Below, piece after piece: positions 583 to 37,855 of a stretch of 51,832 bases of DNA. The stretch spans positions 1,394 to 53,225 of IMG/VR virus record IMGVR_UViG_3300030118_004854. One strand, 5' to 3'. Numbering within the stretch: the first letter of the stretch is position 1; every line of letters begins with the position of its first letter. The DNA is from a virus. The position numbers were made by a program, and so were the translations under genes. The notes beneath the pieces are model-generated. The model was not told the DNA's origin. It saw nothing but the letters and a program-made list of their open reading frames with translations, and did not search any database.

Positions 583-659
583 GCACCCTTAGCTCAATTG
601 GATAGAGCAACGGCCTTCTAAGCCGTAGGTTATAGGTTCGATTCCTATAGGGTGTACCA
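583..659 (+). tRNA. tRNA-Arg (UCU)
   Basis: A 77-nt cloverleaf with acceptor GCACCCT/AGGGTGT (first pair G-U), a D-arm with AGCTCAATTGG, anticodon stem ACGGC/GCCGT around loop CTTCTAA (anticodon TCT), a T-arm with GGTTCGATTCC, and an encoded CCA at 657-659. It reads AGA, a codon frequent in this AT-rich genome. It is the only tRNA of the window on the plus strand and sits within the early promoter array. Confidence 0.95.
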
Positions 660-5230: not shown

Positions 5231-5584
5231 ATGAACGTCAAACAAAAAGATAGGCTTCATCCTTTAGAACTTCGCACAGGAATTAAAACATTTGAGATCA
5301 AGCAACAATCTCTATCAAAAGAGAACTTGCACGGATGCGTGGAACTGCACAAGGGTGTCATCACCGTAGATCCTAACCAAAGTATTGAGGATTACAAGGG
5401 TACCCTGCTGCATGAGATCTGCCATGTTGGACTGGATATGTATGGACTGGGTGAGGACGATCAAATCCCTCAGATGACCAACGAGTATCTTACCTCCGTC
5501 ACATCAAACATGATACAGCAGCTTGCCGGTTTGAATCCTGAATTGTTTAGTTATATATTAGGTGGTGCCCATCACAGGACTTGA
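5231..5584 (+). CDS. HExxH zinc-metallopeptidase-like protein, copy 1
   Basis: A 117-residue protein with LLHEICHVGLD (about 59-69), the HExxH zinc site of compact metallopeptidases, in a helix after a short beta region. It shares with the 25238-25639 protein the HEIxH core, a following GLxE, and 'LTxxxL...LNPxLF' at the C-terminus, so they are paralogs. No signal peptide. It is a lone plus-strand gene among minus-strand tRNAs, and its last 22 bases overlap the 3' end of tRNA-Thr. Substrate unknown; peptidase activity is inferred from the motif. Confidence 0.65.
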   Translation: MNVKQKDRLHPLELRTGIKTFEIKQQSLSKENLHGCVELHKGVITVDPNQSIEDYKGTLLHEICHVGLDMYGLGEDDQIPQMTNEYLTSVTSNMIQQLAGLNPELFSYILGGAHHRT

Positions 5585-5638
5585 ACCTGTAACCTACGGT
5601 TTACAAAACCGTTGCTCTACCAATTGAGCTAGACGGGC
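5563..5638 (-). tRNA. tRNA-Thr (UGU)
   Basis: 76 nt; acceptor GCCCGTC/GATGGGC, anticodon stem ACGGT/ACCGT with loop TTTGTAA (anticodon TGT), T-loop TTCAAGT, encoded CCA. Last of a five-tRNA cluster on this strand. Its 3' end overlaps the convergent HExxH gene by 22 bases. Confidence 0.95.
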
Positions 5639-5641
5639 AAA

Positions 5642-5717
5642 TGGCTCCTCAAGTAGGACTCGAACCTACGACCCGATGATTAACAGTCATCTGCTCTACC
5701 AACTGAGCTATTGAGGA
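5642..5717 (-). tRNA. tRNA-Asn (GUU)
   Basis: 76 nt; acceptor TCCTCAA/TTGAGGA, anticodon stem GATGA/TCATC with loop CTGTTAA (anticodon GTT), T-arm GTAGG-TTCGAGT-CCTAC, encoded CCA. Three bases separate it from tRNA-Thr. Confidence 0.95.
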
Positions 5718-5718
5718 A

Positions 5719-5794
5719 TGGTACCTTCGCAAGGACTTGAACCTTGGACCAATCGGTTAAAAGCCGAATGCTCTACCAACTGAGCTACGAAGGC
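5719..5794 (-). tRNA. tRNA-Lys (UUU)
   Basis: 76 nt; acceptor GCCTTCG/CGAAGGT with a G-U first pair, anticodon loop CTTTTAA (anticodon TTT), one T-T mismatch at the top of the anticodon stem, T-loop TTCAAGT, encoded CCA. Confidence 0.95.
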
Positions 5795-5799
5795 GTGTA

Positions 5800-5887
5800 T
5801 GGTAACAGTGGCGGGACTCGAACCCGCAAGACCGATATGGTCAACAGATTTTAAGTCTGTCGTGTATGCCAATTCCACCACACTGTC
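5800..5887 (-). tRNA. tRNA-Leu (UAA)
   Basis: 88 nt with the long variable arm of class II tRNAs; acceptor GACAGTG/CACTGTT (first pair G-U), anticodon stem ACAGA/TCTGT with loop CTTAAAA (anticodon TAA), T-loop TTCGAGT, encoded CCA. Confidence 0.95.
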
Positions 5888-5891
5888 ATAA

Positions 5892-5968
5892 TGGTAGGGC
5901 AACATGGACTTGAACCATGGACCTGAGGTATATAAGACCCCTGCTCTAACCAACTGAGCTATTGCCCC
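5892..5968 (-). tRNA. tRNA-Ile (UAU)
   Basis: 77 nt; acceptor GGGGCAA/TTGCCCT (first pair G-U), anticodon stem GGGGT/ACCTC with loop CTTATAT (anticodon TAT), T-loop TTCAAGT, encoded CCA. It should read AUA directly. Most bacteria instead use a CAU tRNA modified with lysidine, so a UAU tRNA is less common. Confidence 0.9.
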
Positions 5969-14137: not shown

Positions 14138-14908
14138 TTATTTAAGCCCTATGTGATAGAAAAAGTTCTTATCTTTTATATCTAATTTATTTTTAGATTG
14201 CCAAACCCTCTGAGGGGAAAAATCAATCCAATTATCAGCTAAGGGTACAAAGTTTAAGTTATTAGGTATCCTCACATTGTAGTCTAACCGTATGAAACAA
14301 TTTGTAAAAAGCTGTTCGCTAGTTCCAAATTGTCCATAACCTCCACCGCTTTTATCATAGGGCAAGAAACCAAACTTATCCTTTACTTTTTCTAGACTTT
14401 CCCTATTAGCAATTCCAAACCCTCCTGAGACATGCTTTCTTCTGAAATCGCTCTCAAAGTTTATATTAGTTAAAGCTAAAAAGCCTAGTTTAGGATCTTC
14501 TTCAAATTCGTTAACAGCTAATTGATAGTACCCTGGTCGATAAACTCGGATATCGTCTTCACAGAAGAACCAGTAATCATACTGGCCTTCAAAATGATCG
14601 TAGGCATAACTGTAAGCGCCCAAGGAGGCACCTAGCCTTTCGTGCCTATCTAATACCGTAATACTACCCCAATCTGTTTTTGTATCATTAACTTCATTCA
14701 GAAAATCTAAACACTCTTTAGGGATATCACCTTCAAAAACATTATGAACGATAATAGTATCCAAACTCTCCACACCAGGGTCGGTATTGGAATCTGTATC
14801 TAATATATACTTAAATAACTCAAGAGTTTTTAATGGTCCATCGGGGCTACAGGACACGGAACCTCTTTTAGGACCGAAGTAAACACAAAAAACTTTACAA
14901 GCCTTCAT
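14138..14908 (-). CDS. GT-A-type glycosyltransferase
   Basis: 256 residues. An N-terminal nucleotide-binding half with a conserved-looking 'CEDDIRVY' (Asp118-Asp119) in the position of the metal-binding DxD motif, then 'GGFGIANRESL', typical of acceptor loops in these enzymes. No membrane segment or signal. The donor is not predictable. Its start overlaps the aminotransferase end by 14 bases. Confidence 0.7.
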   Translation of the reverse strand: MKACKVFCVYFGPKRGSVSCSPDGPLKTLELFKYILDTDSNTDPGVESLDTIIVHNVFEGDIPKECLDFLNEVNDTKTDWGSITVLDRHERLGASLGAYSYAYDHFEGQYDYWFFCEDDIRVYRPGYYQLAVNEFEEDPKLGFLALTNINFESDFRRKHVSGGFGIANRESLEKVKDKFGFLPYDKSGGGYGQFGTSEQLFTNCFIRLDYNVRIPNNLNFVPLADNWIDFSPQRVWQSKNKLDIKDKNFFYHIGLK

Positions 14909-15992
14909 AGTTATTCACGACTTGCGTAATATGATTCAGATCGCCCTCTGATAGCCACCAACCACAGGGTATATTCATTAACCTTTTATCAAAATACTTT
15001 AGGTTAGTTAAGGATTCATCTTGATACTCTTTAAATACAGAATAGCGTAGATTGTTAACATGCGCCTGATCAGACGCAATACCGTTATCTGCTAAATAAT
15101 TTCTGAAGTGTTCCTTATCTTCAACCAAGACGCTAAAGAGCCAAGATGCAGACACGCGGTCTGCCTTCGATTTAGTAACCTTAACATGAGGATTACTAAT
15201 GTTTTTCCTTAAGAAGGCTGCGTTTTCAATGTGACTATCGATAAGGCCATCAATGTATTTCATCTGCTCCAACCCCACAACAGCATTAGTGTTGTTCATA
15301 TGGAACTTAAAACCATACTCAGGAATATCTTGATCCCATCTAGAGGAGCATTTAAACTTCCTATCTAAGCCAAACCAACGAAGCTTCCTAGCTCTAATCG
15401 CATCTTCTTCAGATTTACAAACAAGAGCACCCCCGTCAGCAGTTGTTAAGTGCTTTACTGCCTGGAAAGAGAAGCAAACGAAATCTCCGTGGTTCCCAAT
15501 ACGAACACCTTTGTAGGTAGAGCGTAATGCATGGGCTGCATCTTCAACGACCTTAACATTGTGCTCCTTCGCAATAGCTAGAATCTCATCGAGGTCACAT
15601 GGTTGTCCTCCCCAATGAACTAAAACAATTGCTTTAGTTCTTTCTGTGATCTTTTGCTTAACGCTCTCGGGGTCGATGTTTCCTGTCTCTGGGTCAATAT
15701 CTGCAAAGACCAACTTAGCACCCGTGTTATGGAAAGGTCCATTGGTAGCCATACAGGTCATAGCGGTTGAGATGACCTCATCCCCCTCCCTCAAACCGAT
15801 CAACCGACCAGCAAGAACTAAAGAGTTAGTGCAAGCGTTAGTGAGGACAGTGTTTGGATTTCCAATGTAGTCAGCAAATTCCTTTTCAAACCTATCAGAA
15901 TATTCACCTTCAGTTACAAAGCCGGAATCCCAAACACTTTGCAGTGTCTCACCGATATTTGGCGGTGAGTGTACTTTCATTAATGGTATCAT
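14895..15992 (-). CDS. DegT/DnrJ/EryC1 sugar aminotransferase
   Basis: 365 residues; PLP-dependent transfer of an amino group to a keto-sugar nucleotide. Visible are 'TNACTNSL' (cofactor phosphate), VVEDAAHA (Asp151), and FSFQAVKHLTTADGG with Lys180 as the PLP Schiff-base lysine. Normal family length. Paired with the SDR and the acetyltransferase it fits a classical route: keto-sugar formation, amination and N-acetylation. ATG 15992 overlaps the SDR stop as TAATG; Met5 is an alternative. Confidence 0.93.
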   Translation of the reverse strand: MIPLMKVHSPPNIGETLQSVWDSGFVTEGEYSDRFEKEFADYIGNPNTVLTNACTNSLVLAGRLIGLREGDEVISTAMTCMATNGPFHNTGAKLVFADIDPETGNIDPESVKQKITERTKAIVLVHWGGQPCDLDEILAIAKEHNVKVVEDAAHALRSTYKGVRIGNHGDFVCFSFQAVKHLTTADGGALVCKSEEDAIRARKLRWFGLDRKFKCSSRWDQDIPEYGFKFHMNNTNAVVGLEQMKYIDGLIDSHIENAAFLRKNISNPHVKVTKSKADRVSASWLFSVLVEDKEHFRNYLADNGIASDQAHVNNLRYSVFKEYQDESLTNLKYFDKRLMNIPCGWWLSEGDLNHITQVVNNYEGL

Positions 15993-16909
15993 TATTTAGA
16001 GTTCCTGTTAAAGTAATCAAGCATCTTCAACAAACCGTCTTGAAGAGTAACTGTAGGCTGTATAGAGGTATCCTTAACGACCTTGTCGATGTTTGCACAT
16101 CTCCTCAGTGGTTCATCCTTAGGGTAGTAGTCGGGGTAATCCTTAATAACGTATCTGCCTTCGTAGTTTAAAACGTCACAGAATACCTCAGCAAGCTCGA
16201 CCATCGTGAGTTCAGGGGTGGGGTTTCCAACATTATAAACTTCCCCGTTCTTACCATTAACTAAAACACCGAGGCACATACTAATACCATCGCCTGCATA
16301 GCAGAAGGTCCTGGTCTGTTTCCCGTTACCATACACAACAATGTCTTCATCGTTAAGATAATTTCTCATCCAGTTGGATAAAACACGGTTGTCATTAATG
16401 CCCATATAAGGTCCATAGAAATTAAAAGGTCTAATCACCTTTACATTAACACCGTATGTATTGAAATAAATATGGCACAGAGTCTCCAACACTTGCTTGC
16501 CAATATCATAACAACTTCTACTATTTCTGGTTGGGATTGTACCTATGTATGATTCCTTAGTAGGGATGTTACCCTTAGTAGGCGTCCCGTAAACCTCGCT
16601 GGAGCTATACATGATGACACTTTCGACTTTGTGCTTTACGCAATAATCCAACACATTTTTAGTCCCAACATAAGAAACATCTAACGTTTCCACTGGCTTT
16701 TTCATGTATTTCTCAGGGCTAGCGATGCCAGCACAATTGATTACATAATCATACCGTGGCAAATCGTTCAAAGGCTTACAAATATCGTCTCCGTTTTGGA
16801 TATCGTAACATCTAAAGTCATTTCCGTTCTTAATAAGAAAGTCTTTGAACCAATTACCTAAAAAGCCATCTGAGCCTATTAACAATACTTTTTTATTTTT
16901 ATCTAACAT
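15992..16909 (-). CDS. NAD-dependent nucleotide-sugar epimerase/dehydratase (SDR)
   Basis: 305 residues. GSDGFLG (12-18) is the NAD loop, SSSEVYG (102-108) holds the active-site Ser/Glu region, and Tyr134-x3-Lys138 (YDIGK) the catalytic pair. 'FNFYGPYMG' and 'TRTFCYAGD' resemble UDP-glucuronate decarboxylase and dTDP-glucose dehydratase relatives. It probably makes the keto or epimerised sugar used by the aminotransferase encoded just downstream. Confidence 0.9.
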   Translation of the reverse strand: MLDKNKKVLLIGSDGFLGNWFKDFLIKNGNDFRCYDIQNGDDICKPLNDLPRYDYVINCAGIASPEKYMKKPVETLDVSYVGTKNVLDYCVKHKVESVIMYSSSEVYGTPTKGNIPTKESYIGTIPTRNSRSCYDIGKQVLETLCHIYFNTYGVNVKVIRPFNFYGPYMGINDNRVLSNWMRNYLNDEDIVVYGNGKQTRTFCYAGDGISMCLGVLVNGKNGEVYNVGNPTPELTMVELAEVFCDVLNYEGRYVIKDYPDYYPKDEPLRRCANIDKVVKDTSIQPTVTLQDGLLKMLDYFNRNSK

Positions 16910-17474
16910 TATTTTTGGGAGTATATGATTTGTTACAAATATTTTTGTAGTTCTTAAGTCTGTCTAGATTCATCCATTCTTCTCGGATTAAACCTAAGCA
17001 TATACTGTCGAGATAAGTGCTACACTTGTAAACAGCTTTTCTCCTGATTCCTTCCTCTTTAAATCCCACCCACAAAGCAGTTTTTAAGCTAGCTAGATTA
17101 TTTTCTAAGACTTCAGTATCTAGTCTATGCATATTTAAAACTTCAAATCCAAAGTCAACTCCAGCCTCTAAAACAGGCTTAGATAATCCCTTACCTCTGT
17201 GCTCTTTAAAAACGTCGTGGGCCGACTGATAACTCCTGGATACCCAATCTATGTCGGATATTTTATATGTACCTACAGGCACCTGATCCTGGTAGACTAT
17301 GAAAAACATAGAGTCTTTGTTGTTCATAGTCTCAAACCACTTTTTTTGTTGATTTAAATTGTTAATAGTAATATGATGAGTTCCAAACCAGGATTCATCT
17401 TTCAACTCTTTCATCATTTGAAGATCTTTCTCTTCAAGAGATGCTAGTCGTAAACCATTCTTATGCTCATACAT
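16899..17474 (-). CDS. GNAT-family N-acetyltransferase
   Basis: 191 residues. 'VFKEHRGKGLSKPVLEAG' is the acetyl-CoA-binding motif A of GNAT enzymes, followed by 'LNMHRLDTEVLENN' and 'FKEEGIRRKAVY', as in RimJ/RimL-type and sugar-amine acetyltransferases. GGTGAGG 6 bases before ATG 17474 supports this start over ATG 17495. Likely acetylates the amino sugar made by the two following enzymes (inference). Confidence 0.85.
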   Translation of the reverse strand: MYEHKNGLRLASLEEKDLQMMKELKDESWFGTHHITINNLNQQKKWFETMNNKDSMFFIVYQDQVPVGTYKISDIDWVSRSYQSAHDVFKEHRGKGLSKPVLEAGVDFGFEVLNMHRLDTEVLENNLASLKTALWVGFKEEGIRRKAVYKCSTYLDSICLGLIREEWMNLDRLKNYKNICNKSYTPKNNVR

Positions 17475-17482
17475 AAAATACC

Positions 17483-18184
17483 TCACCATATGCATGTCTT
17501 AGACAAGGTAGGGGCACCTCGTAAATACCCTCTATTCGCCCCAACACCAATATCAATATTTAAAACACTACCCAAATCAATTATAGTATGATTAGGGTAT
17601 TTTTCGTAGAGTTTCTTGCAAAGTATATTTGCAAAAGGACCTGCACATAATAGAATTAAATTATGCTCTATTGCCTGATCTAGCTTACTCCCCAGATAAG
17701 GATAAACATCTTTGTTATTAATCCAAGCATCAGGACCAATTTTGTAGTGGTCATCCACTTTAAAATTTAAATTAGAGGCATCGCCGGGGGAGATCAAGGT
17801 CGTTTTATAATTGTTGAATAATGGAATAACACTTTCCCTAAAGTAATTATAGTTTGAGTTAACGAATATGTTAGCCCAAGTTAATCTCTCTTCTACTACA
17901 CTAGTAACCTCCTTCATTGACTGATGTTTCGAGTCTCCAACGCAACAACGACAGGCAATACCGATAAAGTAGTTATCCTGGTTATGCTGAAAGGAATCTA
18001 GTAAGTCTTTTCTAAGATCTTTTTGACCATCAAAGTTAAACTCTCCTTTGTGAAGTAAGTTTAACTTGTTATTGTTGATAATTGCCATCTCACCATCACC
18101 AAACCTAGCAATAGAAAATGGTTCTTTATTTTTGAGCTTCTCAGACAAATACTCAATATCACCTCTGAAGTTACTAGTTAGCAT
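17483..18184 (-). CDS. GT-D-fold glycosyltransferase (DUF1792-like)
   Basis: 233 residues. FSIARFGDGE (23-32) carries the Asp-Gly-Glu metal/donor motif of GT-D enzymes such as the streptococcal DUF1792 glucosyltransferase. 'LISPGDASNLN' and the C-terminal 'IIDLGSVLNIDIG' also fit. Overlaps the upstream GT by 11 bases. It would transfer a hexose onto a glycan or glycoprotein. Confidence 0.75.
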   Translation of the reverse strand: MLTSNFRGDIEYLSEKLKNKEPFSIARFGDGEMAIINNNKLNLLHKGEFNFDGQKDLRKDLLDSFQHNQDNYFIGIACRCCVGDSKHQSMKEVTSVVEERLTWANIFVNSNYNYFRESVIPLFNNYKTTLISPGDASNLNFKVDDHYKIGPDAWINNKDVYPYLGSKLDQAIEHNLILLCAGPFANILCKKLYEKYPNHTIIDLGSVLNIDIGVGANRGYLRGAPTLSKTCIW

Positions 18185-18908
18185 CCTTCACCAATTTCCA
18201 ACCATTATTTAAGTATTGATTGACACAAGCATCTCTCTCCATGTAGAAGGAATGATCAGATCCGTTAGCACCTTTAGAACTTGCCTTAGAGTCTTCACCG
18301 ACATGACCCTTAGTTGATGACCACATATCCGTTTTCTCTTTTGGATGCGGAGGGACATAAGTCTTAAGACCAACCATGTGTGCAGCATAACTCAACTGCA
18401 TATCTTCGCAGTTATCTAAACTTAGGGTTGCGTTCCAGAAAACCCTCATAACATTAGAAGGGAAGAACCAACAGTGACCGGCAAGATCAACCTGTTCAAT
18501 GGATTCGTTAGGGTGGCTCCAGCCTATTCTGGTGTGTGGGCGATAAGAAGGGCCTTCAAGTCTAACACCTACACCTCCAAGTATACAAGGGCCTAACTCG
18601 TCCATCGTGTTAACACAGTTCTTAAACCACTCAGAACCTGGGATGGTATCATCGTCAAATAAAACCACGTAATTAGTCTTAACTAGATTGGCCAGTGCAA
18701 ATCTTCCGTGGAACTTAAAGTTATGACTAGACTTTACAATTTTATCTACCGACAGTTTTTCAAAGTCAAAACTCTCATTATCTGGGTGATGATTTATCCA
18801 TAGCCAGATCTCAGCAGGCTTTACGCTTTGCGAGCGTATAGCTTCAATCTGCTCTTCGAGATACTCAGGCCTCCTAAAGCAATTTAGTATGACAGTAATA
18901 TCACTCAT
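18174..18908 (-). CDS. GT2-family glycosyltransferase
   Basis: 244 residues. Starts with the GT2 strand ITVILNCFRRPEYL, then FDDD at 84-87 as the metal-binding DxD region, and a C-terminal acceptor half with 'DMWSSTKGHVGED'. Soluble, no membrane helix. Overlaps both neighbours. Confidence 0.82.
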   Translation of the reverse strand: MSDITVILNCFRRPEYLEEQIEAIRSQSVKPAEIWLWINHHPDNESFDFEKLSVDKIVKSSHNFKFHGRFALANLVKTNYVVLFDDDTIPGSEWFKNCVNTMDELGPCILGGVGVRLEGPSYRPHTRIGWSHPNESIEQVDLAGHCWFFPSNVMRVFWNATLSLDNCEDMQLSYAAHMVGLKTYVPPHPKEKTDMWSSTKGHVGEDSKASSKGANGSDHSFYMERDACVNQYLNNGWKLVKDAN

Positions 18909-19536
18909 ACTTCTCAGCCACCACTGATAAAACGTTTGGAAGGTTATCGACAGGTGTTCTCAAGCTATCTTCAAAAGAAGAGACACAACGAACTTTGAAT
19001 CCTGATTCTTCTAAGAAGGTGCAGAGAGCATTTTCAGAAAAGTGCCAGATATGCTCTCCATACTTTCTATGCTTCCACTTATCAAACCATTCATCAGATA
19101 GGTAGTGACACCAAGGCAAGGAGATAAGCAGATGCTTGCACTTCAAACTTTTTACAAAGTCTATATCCTTAAAATGCTCTAACGAGTCAAAGAAAGTGAT
19201 CACATCATACTCCCAACTCAAATCACCCTGTGATGCAAACTCTGAAATGTCATGACCATTCACCTCATGTCCGTAGCTCTGCATACCTGCATTAGAGCAG
19301 ACATTTAAGAAATGTCCAAACCCATAACCAACATCCAACACAGACAAGCCCTTAACATTTTTGTAGCCCGCTTTTGACAAGTACCCAGCTAGGAATCCAT
19401 ACCTTAAGTATGAGATATTTTTCATAGCCTCCTCAGAGTATGAGGACTTTATGTAATCCTGGTCGTAATTCATTGTGATCTTTCGATCTTCCTGAACAAT
19501 GACACCATTATCTAATTTTTTATAATTATCCAGCAT
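18901..19536 (-). CDS. SAM-dependent methyltransferase
   Basis: 211 residues of class I fold. 'LSVLDVGYGFGHFL' (65-78) is the SAM-binding motif I and 'DVITFFDSLEHF' motif II, typical of sugar or polysaccharide O-methyltransferases in glycan loci. The C-terminal 'WHFSENALCTFLEESGF' is a common feature of this subgroup. Acceptor unknown; likely a glycan sugar because of its neighbours. Confidence 0.85.
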   Translation of the reverse strand: MLDNYKKLDNGVIVQEDRKITMNYDQDYIKSSYSEEAMKNISYLRYGFLAGYLSKAGYKNVKGLSVLDVGYGFGHFLNVCSNAGMQSYGHEVNGHDISEFASQGDLSWEYDVITFFDSLEHFKDIDFVKSLKCKHLLISLPWCHYLSDEWFDKWKHRKYGEHIWHFSENALCTFLEESGFKVRCVSSFEDSLRTPVDNLPNVLSVVAEKYE

Positions 19537-20407
19537 ATTGTTTTAAGTACTTCTCTATGAGCGGTAGTGCATAATTATAGTTCAAGTTCTCGACTGTATC
19601 TATTAAATCATTACCAGATTGGGTAAACCATTCGGAGGTGCTTGCACCATAGTTCTGACTCGTCAATACGTTAAGACCCAACATCTTAGCCTCCATAACG
19701 AACCTACAGCAAGACTCTGGACTTAGCGGGAAGAAGACTAGTGTAGAGTATTTTGATAGGTTTCTAAGAAACTCTTCTCTTGATGATGACTCAGGAAGAA
19801 GGTCATACTCAAGCTTATTTCCTTTGCAGAAATCCACGGCTTGAGCGGTTCCCTTAAGCCAAACATTAGAGTTATGAACGCATATCTTTCTAGAAGACGG
19901 AGAGCTATCCTTACTTATACTCCTTATCAGATCTAAGTCTTGTCTACTGAAAAGGGAGCACTTTATGTTCTCCAGATTACACTCTATGTTATTTTTCTCA
20001 AACATGGACTTGTGAAAATCTGTTAGGACAAAAACAACTTTTGCATTCTTGTAAAAATCCAATTGCTGCTTGTGCTCGTCAGGGACTAGACCTTCCATGT
20101 TATGAATCCAAGGATTTCTACCATCTGTCCCTGGCTTACCCTTATCATACTGGTGGTCATGCTCAAATATAATATACTTTGAGCCTATGAATGAGTTAAG
20201 GTATGTTTCAGGATACAAAGATCTATTACCAAAGATAAACAGGTCTTCTTCGTTCGGTTGTGGTGGCCGATCTTTGTGAGTGTAGATATGAAGTCTATCC
20301 CCATATAGGCTACGTATAAAGTCTAGGTAGACCTCGCCTGTCATGGCGGCTCCACCAAAGTCCTCTTGCTTTTTAATAAAATCAGTAATAAAATGAATCT
20401 TAGACAT
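19526..20407 (-). CDS. GT-B-type glycosyltransferase (GT4-like)
   Basis: 293 residues. The N-terminal half begins with a Rossmann strand and a Gly-Gly-Ala-Ala loop; the C-terminal half has 'SSREEFLRNLSKYSTLVFFPLSPESCCRFVMEAKMLG', the layout of the E-x7-E donor-binding region of GT4 enzymes. Shorter than usual GT4 (about 350), so the N-terminal domain is reduced. Confidence 0.65.
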   Translation of the reverse strand: MSKIHFITDFIKKQEDFGGAAMTGEVYLDFIRSLYGDRLHIYTHKDRPPQPNEEDLFIFGNRSLYPETYLNSFIGSKYIIFEHDHQYDKGKPGTDGRNPWIHNMEGLVPDEHKQQLDFYKNAKVVFVLTDFHKSMFEKNNIECNLENIKCSLFSRQDLDLIRSISKDSSPSSRKICVHNSNVWLKGTAQAVDFCKGNKLEYDLLPESSSREEFLRNLSKYSTLVFFPLSPESCCRFVMEAKMLGLNVLTSQNYGASTSEWFTQSGNDLIDTVENLNYNYALPLIEKYLKQYAG

Positions 20408-21140
20408 ATGTTGCTCCTTCTCGTTGAATTATGGAGGATGGGTGAACCCTGTAGACCTCCAACATCAGTTTCTTTTTCATAGCTTCTGCTAAACAATATA
20501 CAAAACTTTGATTAGTTATAATCATGTCAGCAGATTTAATATAACCAGCTAGACTAAGCGCATCTGAGGTATCAAGCCTTTCAACTCTACCCTGATATCT
20601 TGGGAAAGTTTTCATAAAGTATTCATATTCCCAATCAAGTGATACAAAGACAGAAGAATCAATAACGCTGTCGTCCAGTGTTTCCCAAAAAGTGTAGTTG
20701 GAGTGATATCTACAACTTCTACTCAGAATATACTTCTTGCCTTCAGGAAGTTCAAGAGAGGGAACATCTATCCAAGGGGTACCACTCCACTTACCCCTAG
20801 TCGAAAGCTTGCCTACAGAATCTAAATGTGCAGACATGAGACAGTTATACTTATTGTGCATTCTAAATTTGTCTAGATTTACATCAACTTTCTCTTCACC
20901 CCAATAGCCAATCGAGTCAATATAAGACTGTCTCTCTAGTAACGGAGTTATAAAATCTATTGATCCCTTATTTAGTTTTGTATGGTTGTAGTTAGCCCAA
21001 CGCACAAGAGGTTCCCTTAATCCTCCCTCTGGGTCCAGCAGTAAAGACCCTCCCCCTGATTCACACATAGCGGGTAGACTTAGAATAATATCTCCTAAAT
21101 CTCCACTGTGTTTAAAGATTAAGCTGTTCTCGTTGCTCAT
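20400..21140 (-). CDS. GT9/heptosyltransferase-like glycosyltransferase
   Basis: 246 residues. 'HSGDLGDIILSLPA' (11-24) is the N-terminal signature of heptosyltransferase-type GT-B enzymes; 'KSADMIITNQSFVYCLAEAM' matches the C-terminal donor site, where the family has Asp/Thr-x2-His-Ala. Shorter than WaaC/WaaF. A role on host LPS core or on a phage glycan is possible. Confidence 0.65.
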   Translation of the reverse strand: MSNENSLIFKHSGDLGDIILSLPAMCESGGGSLLLDPEGGLREPLVRWANYNHTKLNKGSIDFITPLLERQSYIDSIGYWGEEKVDVNLDKFRMHNKYNCLMSAHLDSVGKLSTRGKWSGTPWIDVPSLELPEGKKYILSRSCRYHSNYTFWETLDDSVIDSSVFVSLDWEYEYFMKTFPRYQGRVERLDTSDALSLAGYIKSADMIITNQSFVYCLAEAMKKKLMLEVYRVHPSSIIQREGATYV

Positions 21141-21879
21141 AATGATTATTAAAATCCTCTATTAATTTCTCTTCACTGGCTAAAAACTGTTTATTAATTC
21201 CCACTTTAAGCATTTCATGCCCAAGCTGACTTAAATTTCTTTTAGTTTTTTTGATGGATTCAATGCGATGGTCTACATTGATATACTTGTAGTGTAGTAA
21301 CATAAAGCCAGAGCCTTCTAATGCAGTAATTTTTTCATTAAGATCATCATAGTGCTCACTGATGTGCATACCAAAAGCTATAGAAAGATTTAGATTAGAG
21401 GAGAAGCAACTCTTTTTGGAAAAAGCCTCCGAAGGTGCTCCTTCAGTAATGATGTCAGTCAGCTTCACATCAGAATACTCAGGGAAGGATTTGCTAACCA
21501 TTTGGTAGCCATAAGGTTTAATGGCAAACTTTTCGTGCTTACCAAGAACTTCTTCTAGCCTGTCTCTCGTGCCCTGTGGGTGGTGAAAGAACTCATCAGC
21601 ATCCACCACTATTATCACGTCAAAGTCGCTCCTAAAGCTCTTGTAGGCGTTCTCCTTAACGTTCTTGAGCATTACCTCGTCGTAACCGTCATTTCGCATG
21701 GTGAAGACATCAAGGCTAACACCTGTATCCTCAGACACTTTCTTAGCTACTTCAACAGTATTATCACTAGACTCATGGTCTATTAAAACAATTTTATCTG
21801 CAATATCAGAATAGTGATGTATGAAGTAAGGAATTATCCTCTCTTCATTCCTAACTAAGGTTGTTACTAAAACTTTCAT
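21112..21879 (-). CDS. GT2-like glycosyltransferase
   Basis: 255 residues. 'LVRNEERIIPYFIHHY' and 'IDHESSDNT' are the N-terminal features of GT2 relatives acting as glycosyltransferases with a NEE motif; VVDADEF (92-98) is the DxD. The C-terminal half holds a conserved-type 'LLHYKYINVDHRIESI'. Overlaps neighbours by about 30 bases at each end. Confidence 0.8.
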   Translation of the reverse strand: MKVLVTTLVRNEERIIPYFIHHYSDIADKIVLIDHESSDNTVEVAKKVSEDTGVSLDVFTMRNDGYDEVMLKNVKENAYKSFRSDFDVIIVVDADEFFHHPQGTRDRLEEVLGKHEKFAIKPYGYQMVSKSFPEYSDVKLTDIITEGAPSEAFSKKSCFSSNLNLSIAFGMHISEHYDDLNEKITALEGSGFMLLHYKYINVDHRIESIKKTKRNLSQLGHEMLKVGINKQFLASEEKLIEDFNNHYEQREQLNL

Positions 21880-23032
21880 ATAGCTTGTGTTTTGTGTCCC
21901 TCATAGCCTGAAGGTAAAGATTGTAACGCATCAGGCATTGCTTACGACCATCGAACAACTCTTTGGTTTTTTCATGAAGATTTTGACCAAGTTCAATGCG
22001 ATGCTTCTTGTCTTTGCAAAGTTTGCTTAAGACTTTAACCCATTCACTCTTAGGAGCATCAGGATCAATGAGGTACCCAGTCTCTCCATTAACTATAGTC
22101 TCGTCATAGCAACCCACATTACTTGCGACCAACGGTATTCTATACCTGGAGCACTCCGCTACCTTAATATCAGATTTGGAATCATTGAAGTCATTCATCT
22201 GGAGCGGAGCTATTGCAACATCCATATCTGCGTAGTATCTGCCGTAATCATTAGGAGGTAGGGCATAATGAATATTGTAATTCTTTTGACCCTTAAACCC
22301 TCTTAATAGTTGCGACATATACTCAGGCCAAACTTTGGCTTCCCATGTTCCTTTCTTCTTAGGGTCCGGTGGTGGATGTCCATAAAAATTCCATTGAACA
22401 TTTTCCCTGCCTACTTTCTGGTTCACTAGGTGAGGGATAGCATTAAATACCTTAACATCTCCTCTGTGGTGAATACCCGCAGCGTAACCTATTCTTGTAA
22501 ATTTCCTCTTTGTCTTAGGGTGATTCCAAGCGGGAAGGCTGTAATCAATTACATTTTTCACAACAGCTAAACACCTCCCTACGAAGGGTTTGATTCTATC
22601 AGCAAACTTTAATTGAGTAACAGTAACAAGATCTGCGTGATGGTAACAGAACTTTGTTATCTCGTCTAATTTATTGTCTTTATAAGTTTCGTACAGATGA
22701 TGCTCTTCATACAATCCAGTTAGTAGGTCATCAGTATCAAAGTGTACAAACTTACCAAGCTCTTTGGCGATACCCACCACACGAGCGGTATAAGGACCTC
22801 CATACTTTAGTATGTTAGCTGCGAAAACAACGTCGGCCCAATTCATGTCTGTTAGCTTATCATTAGGCGGCGCATAATTCTTCTCGACATCAACCTCTAG
22901 AGGATTATCATTGTATCTAATCTCAACTTTATCAGCTAACTCCTCTTGCATCATCTTCATGGGAGATAATTGACGATAGTAACTACAGCCTCCATGATTT
23001 GCAAAAACGACTAATATCTTCAATTTACGCAT
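21851..23032 (-). CDS. GT4-family glycosyltransferase heading the glycan operon
   Basis: 393 residues of GT-B fold. N-terminal 'ANHGGCSYYRQLSPMKMM', central 'RIGYAAGIHHRGDV', and the donor site 'KSDIKVAECSRYRIPLVASNVG...ETIVNGETGYLI' with the E-x7-E pattern. First gene of the 14-gene operon, preceded by a TATTAT box 12 bases from its ATG. Donor and acceptor unknown. Confidence 0.87.
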   Translation of the reverse strand: MRKLKILVVFANHGGCSYYRQLSPMKMMQEELADKVEIRYNDNPLEVDVEKNYAPPNDKLTDMNWADVVFAANILKYGGPYTARVVGIAKELGKFVHFDTDDLLTGLYEEHHLYETYKDNKLDEITKFCYHHADLVTVTQLKFADRIKPFVGRCLAVVKNVIDYSLPAWNHPKTKRKFTRIGYAAGIHHRGDVKVFNAIPHLVNQKVGRENVQWNFYGHPPPDPKKKGTWEAKVWPEYMSQLLRGFKGQKNYNIHYALPPNDYGRYYADMDVAIAPLQMNDFNDSKSDIKVAECSRYRIPLVASNVGCYDETIVNGETGYLIDPDAPKSEWVKVLSKLCKDKKHRIELGQNLHEKTKELFDGRKQCLMRYNLYLQAMRDTKHKLYESFSNNLS

Positions 23033-33749: not shown

Positions 33750-35243
33750 ATGCTACTTTCGATGCTATTAGCTCTCGCCCCACAAGGGCCTGTTGGTGTA
33801 AATTTAGAAACAGTCACAGACTGGCACCAGCAAACTCCTTTTGTAGACGCCTTTAAAAGTTCTCGCGAGTGGGTAAGTCATCAAGCTAGCCCTTTCTCTT
33901 GGGGTGGCGGTCCTGCAATCAACACAGATGATCTAGGATGGCCTCAAAGTCTTGAGCCTAATCAATGGATTGAATCTATCATCTTTTCTGATGGGTCTCC
34001 TAATTATCCTGATGGTATCTATAACATTCGTTACGATGGTATCGGAACTCTCAAGCCTTTAGCAGGTGGTAACGGATCTGTTACAATCGTAGAGCAGAAT
34101 CCAGGTCACATTAAAATTAATTTACAGGTTCCGAGCGATGGGTATTTTACTCTTAGGATTACAGACATCGTGCAGCCCATTGAAAATATTAGAGTGTATC
34201 TGCCTGGGTATGACAACTCCAACAGAATCTTCCATCCTGATTTTATGAAAAGCTTAGAGCCTTTCGATACTATCAGGTTTATGAACTGGGGTAGAACAAA
34301 CGATAACCCTGTGATTCACTGGTATGAAGCTACTAACTTTTTTAATTATACTCAGGCTACGTCAGAGGGAGTTCACCCTCTTTACATGATCGACCTGTGC
34401 AATAAAACAAAGAAGCACATGTGGATCTGTGTGCCTCACATGGCAAACGACCTATATGTTCAGTATCTTGCACTTCTATGTCGCATAGCCTTAGATCCAT
34501 CACTTACAATTTATTTGGAGTACAGCAACGAAGTTTGGAATGGCATCTTTGATCAGTGTCAGTATGCTCAAAACGAGGGAACAGCATTGGGACTACACCC
34601 TCAACCTTGGCATGCTGGGTGGCGTTACTATTCTCAGAGATCAGTTGAAGTGTTTAACTTATTCTCTAACATATACAGTCCCTTAAATCAAAGAAGACTT
34701 GTTCGCACCTTGGCAGGTCAGAGTGTCAATCCTTGGATTAATAGACAAATCATGGACTGGCAAAACGCCTATGAGAATGCAGATGCTTTTGCAGTGGCCC
34801 CTTATTTTGGCGGAGCATTAGGTAATCCCAGTAACTACCCACAAGCTTCTACGTTCTCCGTTTCCCACATCCTGTCGCTGTGTCAGTTAGATCTTGACGA
34901 CAATCATAATGTATACACTAGACAAAATAGAATTGATACCACACAAAGAGGCTTACAGCTATTAGCTTACGAAGGTGGTCAACACTTAGTGGGAGTAGGG
35001 TCCGCACAAAACAATCAGGCTCTTACAAACTTATTTGTGCAAGCTAACAGAGACGCGGGTATGCGTCAGTTATATTACAATGATTTAGATCGTTGGTTTG
35101 GCGAGGGCGGAGACCTGTTTATGCTTTACAGAGCAACAGGTAATTATGGTAGGTATGGATCATTTGGATTGCTTGAGTGGCAAACACAACCTAGAGCCAC
35201 AGCACCTAAATGGATGGGTGTGATGGACTATCTTGGTCGTTAG
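33750..35243 (+). CDS. Clan GH-A-like glycoside hydrolase, probably secreted or virion-borne
   Basis: 497 residues. A short hydrophobic start (MLLSMLLALA) may be a weak signal. A beta-rich region (about 75-150) is followed by a TIM-barrel-like domain with 'LEYSNEVWN' (Glu261, acid/base in the Asn-Glu pair) and 'LAYEGGQH' (Glu408, nucleophile), as in clan GH-A enzymes, and conserved Trp at 180, 230s and 290. Similar to bacterial 'cellulose-binding' hydrolase-like proteins. It could cut capsular or matrix polysaccharide, as a depolymerase or an exported enzyme. Convergent with the polymerase genes, ends 4 bases into their 3' end. Confidence 0.65.
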   Translation: MLLSMLLALAPQGPVGVNLETVTDWHQQTPFVDAFKSSREWVSHQASPFSWGGGPAINTDDLGWPQSLEPNQWIESIIFSDGSPNYPDGIYNIRYDGIGTLKPLAGGNGSVTIVEQNPGHIKINLQVPSDGYFTLRITDIVQPIENIRVYLPGYDNSNRIFHPDFMKSLEPFDTIRFMNWGRTNDNPVIHWYEATNFFNYTQATSEGVHPLYMIDLCNKTKKHMWICVPHMANDLYVQYLALLCRIALDPSLTIYLEYSNEVWNGIFDQCQYAQNEGTALGLHPQPWHAGWRYYSQRSVEVFNLFSNIYSPLNQRRLVRTLAGQSVNPWINRQIMDWQNAYENADAFAVAPYFGGALGNPSNYPQASTFSVSHILSLCQLDLDDNHNVYTRQNRIDTTQRGLQLLAYEGGQHLVGVGSAQNNQALTNLFVQANRDAGMRQLYYNDLDRWFGEGGDLFMLYRATGNYGRYGSFGLLEWQTQPRATAPKWMGVMDYLGR

Positions 35244-36304
35244 AGTTTATATTCCACACCATTACCAAAACTAGAACCGACTTCGACATCCACACCTAGG
35301 GGAACTTTCAAATGGATATTGAAATTGTCTTTTAGGTAGTGATAATTTTCAAGCTCGTCACTGACAATCTCAACGACCTTTCTAGTTTCTCCCTTGGGAG
35401 CTATAAGTTCAATTGAGTCGTGAACCGTAGCTACAACCTTAGCCTTCATGCCTTTGAGCTTTTCAATCACACCAAGCATACCACACAATAGAATGTCACT
35501 AGCGGCAGATTGGATTGTAAAGTTTAGACCTTGTCGGAACGCTTCCCTACGCACACCCTTGAAGGGTGATCGAACATTAGGTAGGTGACGATAGCGACCG
35601 AAGATGGTCTTAGCGTAACCAAACTGTTTAATGTAATCATCAATAGTGTTCATGTAGCGGCTCACACCTGGGAAAGCGGCTAGCCAGCTATTGATGATCT
35701 CTTCAGCGCGGTCCTCAGGAATGTTACGCTTTGAAGCAAGGGTATATGCAGTCCCACCATACACTGTTAAGAAGCTCACTTCCTTTGCGATTTGCCGTTC
35801 AAGTTTGCTCACATCCTTAGGGTCCTTATTGAAGGTCAATCCAGCAGAATAACTGTGCAGATCAACGCCAGACTTGAAAGCGTGAATCATATTCTCTTCA
35901 TTAGCAACGTGAGCAAGAACTCTTAGCTCCATCGCCTTCATGTCAATCGTGATAAAGTCGTGTCCTTCTGGGGCTACCACATAATCACGAATGTTTACAT
36001 CAAGCGATTCGCGAGGAAGAGTGTGGAAGGACACACCAATCTTATCAGTCTTCTTCCTGCCGACGTTGGCACCTGAGTTTGAGATACGACCCGTAACGGT
36101 GCCATCAATATTATACTTCACATACATTCGGCTGTTGCCGGTATTCTGTAATGCAGTGCGAGCACCTTCAATATAAACAGAGTGTAGCTTGGTCAGCTTC
36201 TTATACTCTGAGAAGCGATCAAAGAACTTCTTAGCAGCCTTCAACTGACCATCGGACATGTTGTTCAAAACCGCCTTAGCGATGCTTACTTCCTCGTTAT
36301 TCAA
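35240..36304 (-). CDS. polA: DNA polymerase A, C-terminal piece (palm and fingers)
   Basis: 354 residues. 'DGTVTGRISNSGAN' is the conserved region before motif A; motif A is TIDMKAMELR (Asp121, Glu126), motif B RQIAKEVSFLTVYGG (170-184; Lys174, Tyr182), motif C TVHDSIEL (His295, Asp296; the usual Glu is Ser297). It lacks the exonuclease and thumb, which are in the two genes upstream. The start is TTG 36304, with AGAGG 8 bases before, overlapping the upstream stop by 8 bases; Met16 is an alternative. It needs its partners to work (inference). Confidence 0.88.
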   Translation of the reverse strand: MNNEEVSIAKAVLNNMSDGQLKAAKKFFDRFSEYKKLTKLHSVYIEGARTALQNTGNSRMYVKYNIDGTVTGRISNSGANVGRKKTDKIGVSFHTLPRESLDVNIRDYVVAPEGHDFITIDMKAMELRVLAHVANEENMIHAFKSGVDLHSYSAGLTFNKDPKDVSKLERQIAKEVSFLTVYGGTAYTLASKRNIPEDRAEEIINSWLAAFPGVSRYMNTIDDYIKQFGYAKTIFGRYRHLPNVRSPFKGVRREAFRQGLNFTIQSAASDILLCGMLGVIEKLKGMKAKVVATVHDSIELIAPKGETRKVVEIVSDELENYHYLKDNFNIHLKVPLGVDVEVGSSFGNGVEYKL

Positions 36305-36821
36305 CCTTCAAGCCTCTTGCTGTGAACTCTTCTTCGACCATGGCCTTAACCTTGGTCAGCGTTTCTTCATTGGTAGAAGGAGCACCCTTCTTAGTGAACT
36401 CGAAAGGATACAATCCAAGACCAAAGTCGTCAACTTGAATCCACTCGCCTTCCTCACTCTTCTCGAATGAGTAGATAATCTTTACAAGTTGATTAGTAGA
36501 GTTAAGATTGGCATCCTCATCCAAACCGGCAGCTTCCCGCAAGGCAATGTCTGCCAGTTTGAGTTTGTCTTGAAGTTGCTGGTCCAATTCATTCAGCTTA
36601 TCCTCATCAATAAGCAAACCCTCAAACTCCATGTCACGGAAGGCAACTGTCAAGGGTGCAATCAACTTCTCATACAGGTGCTCTAGCTTCTTGTGTCGAA
36701 CCTCTTCAAGTAGTTTTACATACACCTTTGCGGTGGCGTAAGTATCCTTTGCGTTACCCTCAACGCATTGAATCAATGAAATGTTCTTCCAATCGAACTT
36801 TTTACCTTCAACTGTAAGCAT
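36297..36821 (-). CDS. polA: DNA polymerase A, middle piece (end of exonuclease, thumb)
   Basis: 174 residues. 'AKDTYATAKVYVKLLEE' is the exonuclease motif III region, 'PLTVAFRDMEFEGLLIDEDKL' the thumb start seen in all PolA enzymes, and 'NLNSTNQLVKII' with 'KKGAPSTNEETL' the segment before the palm. It is in a different frame from both neighbours. Its ATG overlaps the upstream stop as TAATG; its TAA lies 8 bases inside the next gene. Coupled reinitiation would make three subunits in equal amounts. Confidence 0.85.
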   Translation of the reverse strand: MLTVEGKKFDWKNISLIQCVEGNAKDTYATAKVYVKLLEEVRHKKLEHLYEKLIAPLTVAFRDMEFEGLLIDEDKLNELDQQLQDKLKLADIALREAAGLDEDANLNSTNQLVKIIYSFEKSEEGEWIQVDDFGLGLYPFEFTKKGAPSTNEETLTKVKAMVEEEFTARGLKVE

Positions 36822-37855
36822 TAGAACTTTTCTTCTGGGAAGTAGTAGTAGACAAGATCAGCCAAAGATTTTGGCACATCCTCTTTGTAGAGGTGTTGCA
36901 GCAGCTTCGTATCATATACATTATATACATCTTCGACACCATAACGCTTCAAGAACTTAAGGTCGAACCCAGCATTCTGCAATATCTTTCTATTTTTTTT
37001 GTTTGCCATGGCCTTGCAGATAAATCGCATGAAAGCACCCTTCACCTTGTAACCAAGTTTAGCCTCCTTATGATCAATAGGCAACACTAAAGTCCTACCA
37101 AGATCTCCAGTGTCACGATTAACGAGTGTCATAGAGACTGTATGAATTGTGTCTTCAAGAAAATTAAGACCCGTTGTTTCAATGTCTACAGCGAGGTCCA
37201 TCTCGGTGTCGATAAACTCTCCGCTCAACTCATCCAGTTCACCTATACTCATGGCAAGAGTGTGATCTACCTGAGCTTCTGAGGCCTTTCCTAAAAGCTC
37301 GTTATTTAATGCGTTCTCTAGGTCGGTTCGGAAGAGATAGGCGTTCTTAGGCTCTGCTACGACCTGGAACGGGTGGATGATAGGCACTACCTGGAAATTT
37401 GTCCCTGCCTCTGTGATAAGGTCATCAACCTTACCGCGAATCTTGCTTTCCTCCCTTGCTTTTCCATACAAAAGGGTGGTAGCGACCTTGCCACAAGCGA
37501 ATACAAGTCGAGGCTTGTAGTGATCAATAGTATCGTGCAAGTGAGTCTTACAGGATTTCTTGATGCCAGTGCTCAGATTCTCAGAAGTAATATTAGGACA
37601 TTTAACTGCGGTTGTGTAGCCAACCTCCCAATCCTGTGAAAACCTAGCAAGCTCTCTTTGAATTACGTTATACTCCTGAGGTCTAAAAGCAGTGAACTCA
37701 CCTTCAAACATCTTTGCTGAATCAGATATAAAAAGAATGTCTACTGGAGTAGATTTGTACTCATAATCTATAATCGTATGTGTGGGTAGATTCATCCTCA
37801 AAGCAGGGCAACCCTCACACTTTGGGTTTGCACCTTGAAAACTTAGTTGCGGCAT
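36821..37855 (-). CDS. polA: Uracil-DNA-glycosylase domain fused to DNA polymerase A exonuclease (N-terminal piece)
   Basis: 344 residues. Residues about 1-195 resemble family 4/5 uracil-DNA glycosylases: Cys13 and Cys16 (CEGC) of the iron-sulfur site, 'DILFISDSAK', 'KKSCKTHLHDTIDHYKPRLVFACGKVA' and IHPF. Residues about 215-344 are the start of a PolA 3'-5' exonuclease: LAVDIETTGLN (Exo I), LQNAGFDLKFL (Exo II), 'YDTKLLQHLY'. Exo III is in the next gene. Expressed from a divergent TATCAT box 6 bases from the ATG. Confidence 0.88.
   Translation of the reverse strand: MPQLSFQGANPKCEGCPALRMNLPTHTIIDYEYKSTPVDILFISDSAKMFEGEFTAFRPQEYNVIQRELARFSQDWEVGYTTAVKCPNITSENLSTGIKKSCKTHLHDTIDHYKPRLVFACGKVATTLLYGKAREESKIRGKVDDLITEAGTNFQVVPIIHPFQVVAEPKNAYLFRTDLENALNNELLGKASEAQVDHTLAMSIGELDELSGEFIDTEMDLAVDIETTGLNFLEDTIHTVSMTLVNRDTGDLGRTLVLPIDHKEAKLGYKVKGAFMRFICKAMANKKNRKILQNAGFDLKFLKRYGVEDVYNVYDTKLLQHLYKEDVPKSLADLVYYYFPEEKF

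Follow-up and report, generated by a model that had tools for sequence, protein, structure and literature searches.

For its replication, the phage sequenced here very probably uses a DNA polymerase of family A built from three subunits, each translated separately, that would assemble non-covalently, the assembly and the activities being inferred. The window, that is the whole stretch of DNA analysed, has 51,832 nt and covers positions 1,394-53,225 of IMGVR_UViG_3300030118_004854, an IMG/VR record of 53,225 bases from an uncultivated virus. It contains three consecutive genes on the minus strand, all three ORFs lying where a first-pass annotation of this DNA had placed them. Gene 1 (36821..37855) codes for 344 aa, with a uracil-DNA glycosylase (UDG) domain at residues 1-190 and the N-terminal part of a 3'-5' exonuclease at residues 193-344. 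Gene 2 (36297..36821) codes for 174 aa and comprises the C-terminal end of the exonuclease, in which the Exo III Asp lies, followed by most of the thumb, and gene 3 (35240..36304) codes for 354 aa from a TTG start and carries the end of the thumb, the palm and the fingers with motifs A, B and C. Together they cover the phage DNA polymerase profile phrog_17 of PHROG consecutively (profile positions 547-785, 794-919 and 929-1237).

Both joints described in the first-pass annotation are seen in the window sequence. At joint 1 (36819..36823, minus strand), the stop of gene 1 and the start of gene 2 overlap by one base in TAATG. At joint 2 (36297..36304, minus strand), the TTG start of gene 3 lies inside the end of gene 2 in an 8-base overlap, TTGAATAA, with a GAGG ribosome-binding-like motif (36313..36316, minus strand) 8 nt upstream. 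The same kind of coupling is indeed shared with unrelated genes, 1-base overlaps being present also at, for example, 45538, 46191 and 46736. The three genes of the window would thus form one cluster with coupled or re-initiated translation (through TAATG at joint 1, and GAGG with the TTG overlap at joint 2), a coupling mechanism that is inferred.

The domain content was determined from sequence profiles and structural models. Gene 1 matches UDG (PF03167) and DNA_pol_A_exo1 (PF01612) in Pfam, and its AlphaFold2 model (pLDDT 89.8) matches both a family 4 UDG (4zbx, Z 18.5) and residues 324-471 of the Klenow fragment (Z 13.8), the phiLo polymerase (9qhs) being its top Foldseek match. Cysteines C13, C16, C86 and C102, which we take to be the ligands of an iron-sulphur cluster, are invariant in 98/98 sequences (here and below, 97 distinct protein triples from relatives plus the window), and gene 1 thus has both the fold and the four Cys of a family 4 / UdgX-type uracil-DNA glycosylase. 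The HP motif of UDG is kept in nearly all relatives; the first, catalytic motif could not be recognised with confidence. Gene 2 gives only a weak N-terminal DNA_pol_A match in Pfam (E 1.3e-3), below the cut-off, and would be labelled hypothetical by annotation pipelines that see it alone; an INPHARED search with gene 2 alone likewise returned no match. However, a profile built from 54 relatives matches positions 159-294 of the Klenow chain, that is residues 482-617 (chain position + 323), with an E of 7e-16. In the AlphaFold2 model of gene 2 (pLDDT 84.4; pTM 0.50 for gene 2 alone), residues 71-163 match the thumb of Pol I at 547-622; the Z of 6.3, rising to 7.3 at best against Taq, is modest for a helical piece, but the sequence profile agrees. 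Gene 3 matches DNA_pol_A (PF00476, E 1.4e-71) and the palm and fingers of Pol I in the PDB (E 2e-48), and its identity to the best phage records among the matches listed does not exceed about 33%. It holds the family A signature residues, namely the catalytic Asp of motif A (D121, 35942..35944), R170 and K174 of motif B (35783..35797) and H295-D296 of motif C (35417..35422), all on the minus strand and invariant in 98/98, while the thumb and the 3'-5' exonuclease expected of such an enzyme come from gene 1 (matching Klenow 324-471) and gene 2 (matching 482-617).

Because gene 1 aligns with Klenow 324-471 and gene 2 from 482 onwards, the first break separates Exo II from Exo III within the exonuclease domain, at about Klenow 471-482; the second lies near the end of the thumb, both positions being supported by sequence profile and model. 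The assignment of Exo I and II to gene 1, Exo III to gene 2 and motifs A, B and C to gene 3, which had been proposed from the letters alone, is borne out by the alignment and the Klenow profile match. The four acidic metal ligands of a DEDDy exonuclease are distributed over the break: D224 and E226 of Exo I (codons within 37178..37186) and D298 of Exo II (36962..36964) are on gene 1, and D26, which aligns to the Exo III Asp of Klenow (D501), is on gene 2 in the GNAKD region (G22-D26, 36744..36758; all minus strand). All four are invariant in 98/98, as are G22 and N23. However, the Tyr of the YxxxD motif, four residues before the last Asp, is replaced by Gly22 in 98/98 (aligned to Klenow Y497), whereas single-chain relatives retain it. 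The claim that one active site needs two polypeptides therefore stands for the four metal-ligand acids. With the Exo III Tyr changed to Gly throughout the family, proofreading activity cannot be presumed, and it may be lowered or altered. That the acids of the exonuclease are conserved both before and after the break is an argument for the two halves coming together.

In the proposed enzyme, gene 1 would give the iron-sulphur-type UDG domain, with a putative glycosylase activity, along with the larger part of the 3'-5' exonuclease domain; the rest of the exonuclease, where the fourth metal ligand lies, and the bulk of the thumb would come from gene 2; and gene 3 would contribute the end of the thumb with the palm and fingers. 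The three proteins are predicted to bind non-covalently in the ancestral single-chain layout and to act as one polymerase, although no complex has been measured or modelled, and polymerase and exonuclease activity are both inferred. As three separate proteins are encoded, the enzyme and its proofreading site must be assembled from parts which form a single chain in the related phage enzymes examined.

The first-pass annotation had called for a survey of relatives with the same breakpoints, and this gave a clear answer. A first scan found 39 relatives (gene 3 72-99% identical), and all those with enough sequence have the same three genes. Profile scans extended the split arrangement down to a gene 3 identity of ~44%, with three separate ORFs in 146/156 distant loci and, in another scan, in 63/70 viral loci, the remaining loci of both being mostly cut by contig ends. 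The complete sets amount to 97 distinct protein triples with the same two breaks (gene 3 identity from 99% down to about 44%), a recurrence that excludes chance. As a positive control for the detection of unbroken genes by the same method, 21/22 genome_contigs loci, all cellular-type PolA (at most 34% identical), came out single-chain. Judging from these sequences, the split appears to be shared by a whole widespread clade of uncultivated T4-like phages, a scale that the first-pass annotation did not see. In a quick tree, all 70 split sequences fall on one side of a single branch and 11 single-chain ones on the other; the split polymerases are likely monophyletic, which is not firmly established given the quick tree and its long branches. 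Two loci depart from the usual structure. An internal frame change interrupts gene 2 in L189 (L189:5554-5832), probably through an error in the sequence or recent damage to the gene, and genes 2 and 3 lie in one ORF at a contig edge in L223 (L223:5998-6846), the only fused joint seen.

We looked at the joints across these relatives for start signals and inserted genes. Among 74 unique DNA triples with the spacing of the window at joint 1, 69 have TAATG, three TAGTG and two TGATG, the start being kept. For the 58 sets with an 8-base overlap at joint 2, the gene 3 start codon begins with G in 36, T in 14 and A in eight, although this base is a second codon position of gene 2, and the following TG is fixed in 58/58, partly by construction since starts were chosen as start codons. 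SD-like motifs are present ahead of 84% of the starts of gene 3 and 38% of those of gene 2, against 14% of internal start-type codons used as control; none was seen upstream of gene 1. More than 60 bases, usually a whole gene, separate genes 1 and 2 in 24/97 sets, and the quick tree requires 10 or more changes to explain which sequences have an insert at joint 1. These inserts, named by eye, include a small membrane-type protein (L148 and others), a glycosyltransferase-like protein (L231) and an oxygenase-like protein (L199), and several lie on the opposite strand (L141, L142, L154, L168 and others). A lipoprotein-like opposite-strand gene with a STIKHAVGG motif recurs at this joint in L141, L142, L149, L168, L172, L181 and L219. 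Inserts between genes 2 and 3 were found in L199, L243 and L351, the same unknown gene of about 205 aa being present in L199 and L351.

An HNH endonuclease at joint 1 was seen in only one relative, L077, where it sits precisely between the two genes, and in L076 one lies directly upstream of gene 1; the window itself has no endonuclease gene at a break. This suggests, without demonstrating it, that a homing endonuclease made the first break and was later lost; it is equally possible that the endonuclease of L077 entered an already existing joint. The same doubt has been raised for Aeromonas phage 25 (PMC2988022).

One extension of the three-subunit reading, doubtful on present evidence yet possible, is that gene 1 is a detachable proofreading module: genes 2 and 3 would form a core that polymerises alone, and the binding of gene 1 would complete in trans the exonuclease site altered by the Tyr to Gly change, so that, by expressing gene 1 separately, the phage could adjust its proofreading in the course of infection. 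A more radical separation, in which gene 1 is a free glycosylase/nuclease and genes 2 and 3 are the polymerase, without any stable three-part complex, seems improbable to us. It would agree with the loss of the Exo III Tyr, with the single ORF for genes 2 and 3 in L223, and with the difference between the joints: other genes often come between genes 1 and 2, whereas the overlap of genes 2 and 3 is almost always kept. However, gene 1 stops before the Exo III segment, and the invariance of its D224, E226 and D298 together with D26 of gene 2 makes best sense if the halves meet.

Programmed ribosomal frameshifts at both joints, which would yield one long polymerase with the stops having a regulatory role, are a still weaker explanation, to which we attach very little weight. 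In its favour, most relatives share the usual frame pattern (-1 then +1) and have short overlaps; however, L032 at joint 1 and L037 at joint 2 are non-overlapping and have another frame relation. Joint 2 varies widely in spacing, with overlaps of 8, 4, 11, 14, 23 and 44 bases and gaps of 14, 16, 125 and 585, and the gene 3 start swaps between TTG, GTG and ATG behind a conserved SD motif. The inserts at joint 1 are the strongest evidence against it: where an opposite-strand gene intervenes, it is not plausible that a ribosome passes from gene 1 to gene 2. No canonical slippery heptamer was seen by eye at joint 1.

Sequencing or assembly error, or a decaying pseudogene, could be entertained for the window, which is one contig of an uncultivated virus, but this reading is refuted by the relatives: the same breaks occur in the 97 distinct triples from many assemblies, including a contig of a Prochlorococcus single-cell genome, all catalytic acids are invariant, and comparison with close relatives gives dN/dS values of 0.01-0.07 in each of the three genes (a rough estimate, dS being often near saturation). 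The earlier judgement that sequencing error was unlikely is thus strengthened by these shared breaks and by the genes inserted at the joints. Joining of the pieces by introns or split inteins, after transcription or translation, can be set aside, even though both elements are common in phage polymerase genes and the single-chain polymerase of phage RcKickapoo holds an intein-like insert, since genes 1 and 2 share a base and leave no room for either at joint 1 of the window, the proteins end without an extra domain, and no Rfam intron family (only tRNAs) was found in the window, L077, L158, L142 or L199.

The closest architecture among known enzymes is the single-chain UDG-exonuclease-PolA of PHROG 17 (Lysinibacillus phage LysYB1, Myoviridae ctfzr933), which has the same domain order and the same UDG type; however, these are one polypeptide with the Exo III Tyr present, whereas the window has three ORFs. 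In the single-chain UDG-PolA of Rhodobacter phage RcKickapoo (L290), the intein-like insert follows TGRSA and has an HNH-like segment. Split phage polymerases are already known. OM43 phage MEP401 and its relatives are marine phages with a family A polymerase in two genes (PMC10580990), but there the palm is interrupted immediately ahead of motif A, a small ORF separates the two genes and a UDG piece is absent, whereas the window is broken in the exonuclease and the thumb. The family B polymerase gp43 is split in the T4-related Aeromonas phages 25 and 44RR, with a homing endonuclease at the break in phage 25, whose products co-purify and polymerise; the split NrdA of phage Aeh1 is also fully active (PMC2988022). 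The phage 25 case and ours are alike in having the polymerase of a T4-related phage in separate cistrons, but gp43 is in two pieces in few phages, and the present enzyme is of family A, in three pieces and found in a whole clade. A split PolB with an intein has been described in MIJ3 (PMC6892783). The first-pass annotation had drawn a parallel with Rhodothermus phage RM378, a far-T4 phage with exonuclease and polymerase on separate genes. The separate genes hold; however, the RM378 enzyme is of family B (motifs DFTSLYPS and YSHTDS), so that it is an analogy and not a relative. It was rejected as a relative of the split PolA, p024 and p092 both being family B and the profiles of genes 1, 2 and 3 giving no match in RM378. 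A three-part family A polymerase is undescribed in the open-access literature searched, and what is new here, with respect to that literature and to INPHARED records only, is the combination of family A, three parts and fixation across a clade.

A replicative polymerase tolerating two permanent breaks, one in the proofreading site and one in the thumb, makes assembly from parts directly testable and offers naturally evolved split points for engineering. It can also serve to study how splits in essential genes reach fixation, by the scar of a homing endonuclease or otherwise, and whether separated proofreading serves regulation.

The three-piece enzyme appears to be the only recognisable DNA polymerase of these phages. 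In eight relatives of 91-130 kb and in the 53 kb record of the window, PF00476 was matched once per record and neither PF00136 nor PF07733 was matched, and no second polymerase of families A, B or C was found in the eight relatives, although the 91-130 kb records may be incomplete, which limits this count. Other genes of the window place the phage, on present similarity, among T4-like myoviruses: they code for a tail sheath (phrog_23), a major head protein (phrog_138) matching T4-type heads and ~28% identical to the best phage records among the matches listed, a UvsX-like recombinase, a T4-type SSB, SbcC/SbcD-like proteins, a DnaB-like helicase and a ribonucleotide reductase.

A phage of the split-polymerase group is also represented by QCKN01000003.1 (L364 / L158), a contig of 130,604 bases in the Prochlorococcus single-cell genome AG-409-P03, with the order gene 1, opposite-strand gene, genes 2 and 3. 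A search of INPHARED for DNA near this 130 kb relative gave no match. The contig may come from an infecting phage or from a co-sorted particle, and a Prochlorococcus (cyanobacterial) host is possible.

In the window, gene 3 is convergent with a gene for a 497 aa protein (33750-35243, plus strand), the two stops overlapping by 4 bases; this protein has no PHROG match, and EYSNEVWN inside it looks glycoside-hydrolase-like. A cluster of sugar genes (aminotransferase, epimerase, glycosyltransferase) is present at 14895-23032 on the minus strand, and six tRNA genes lie at 5566-5968 (minus strand) and 583-656 (plus strand).
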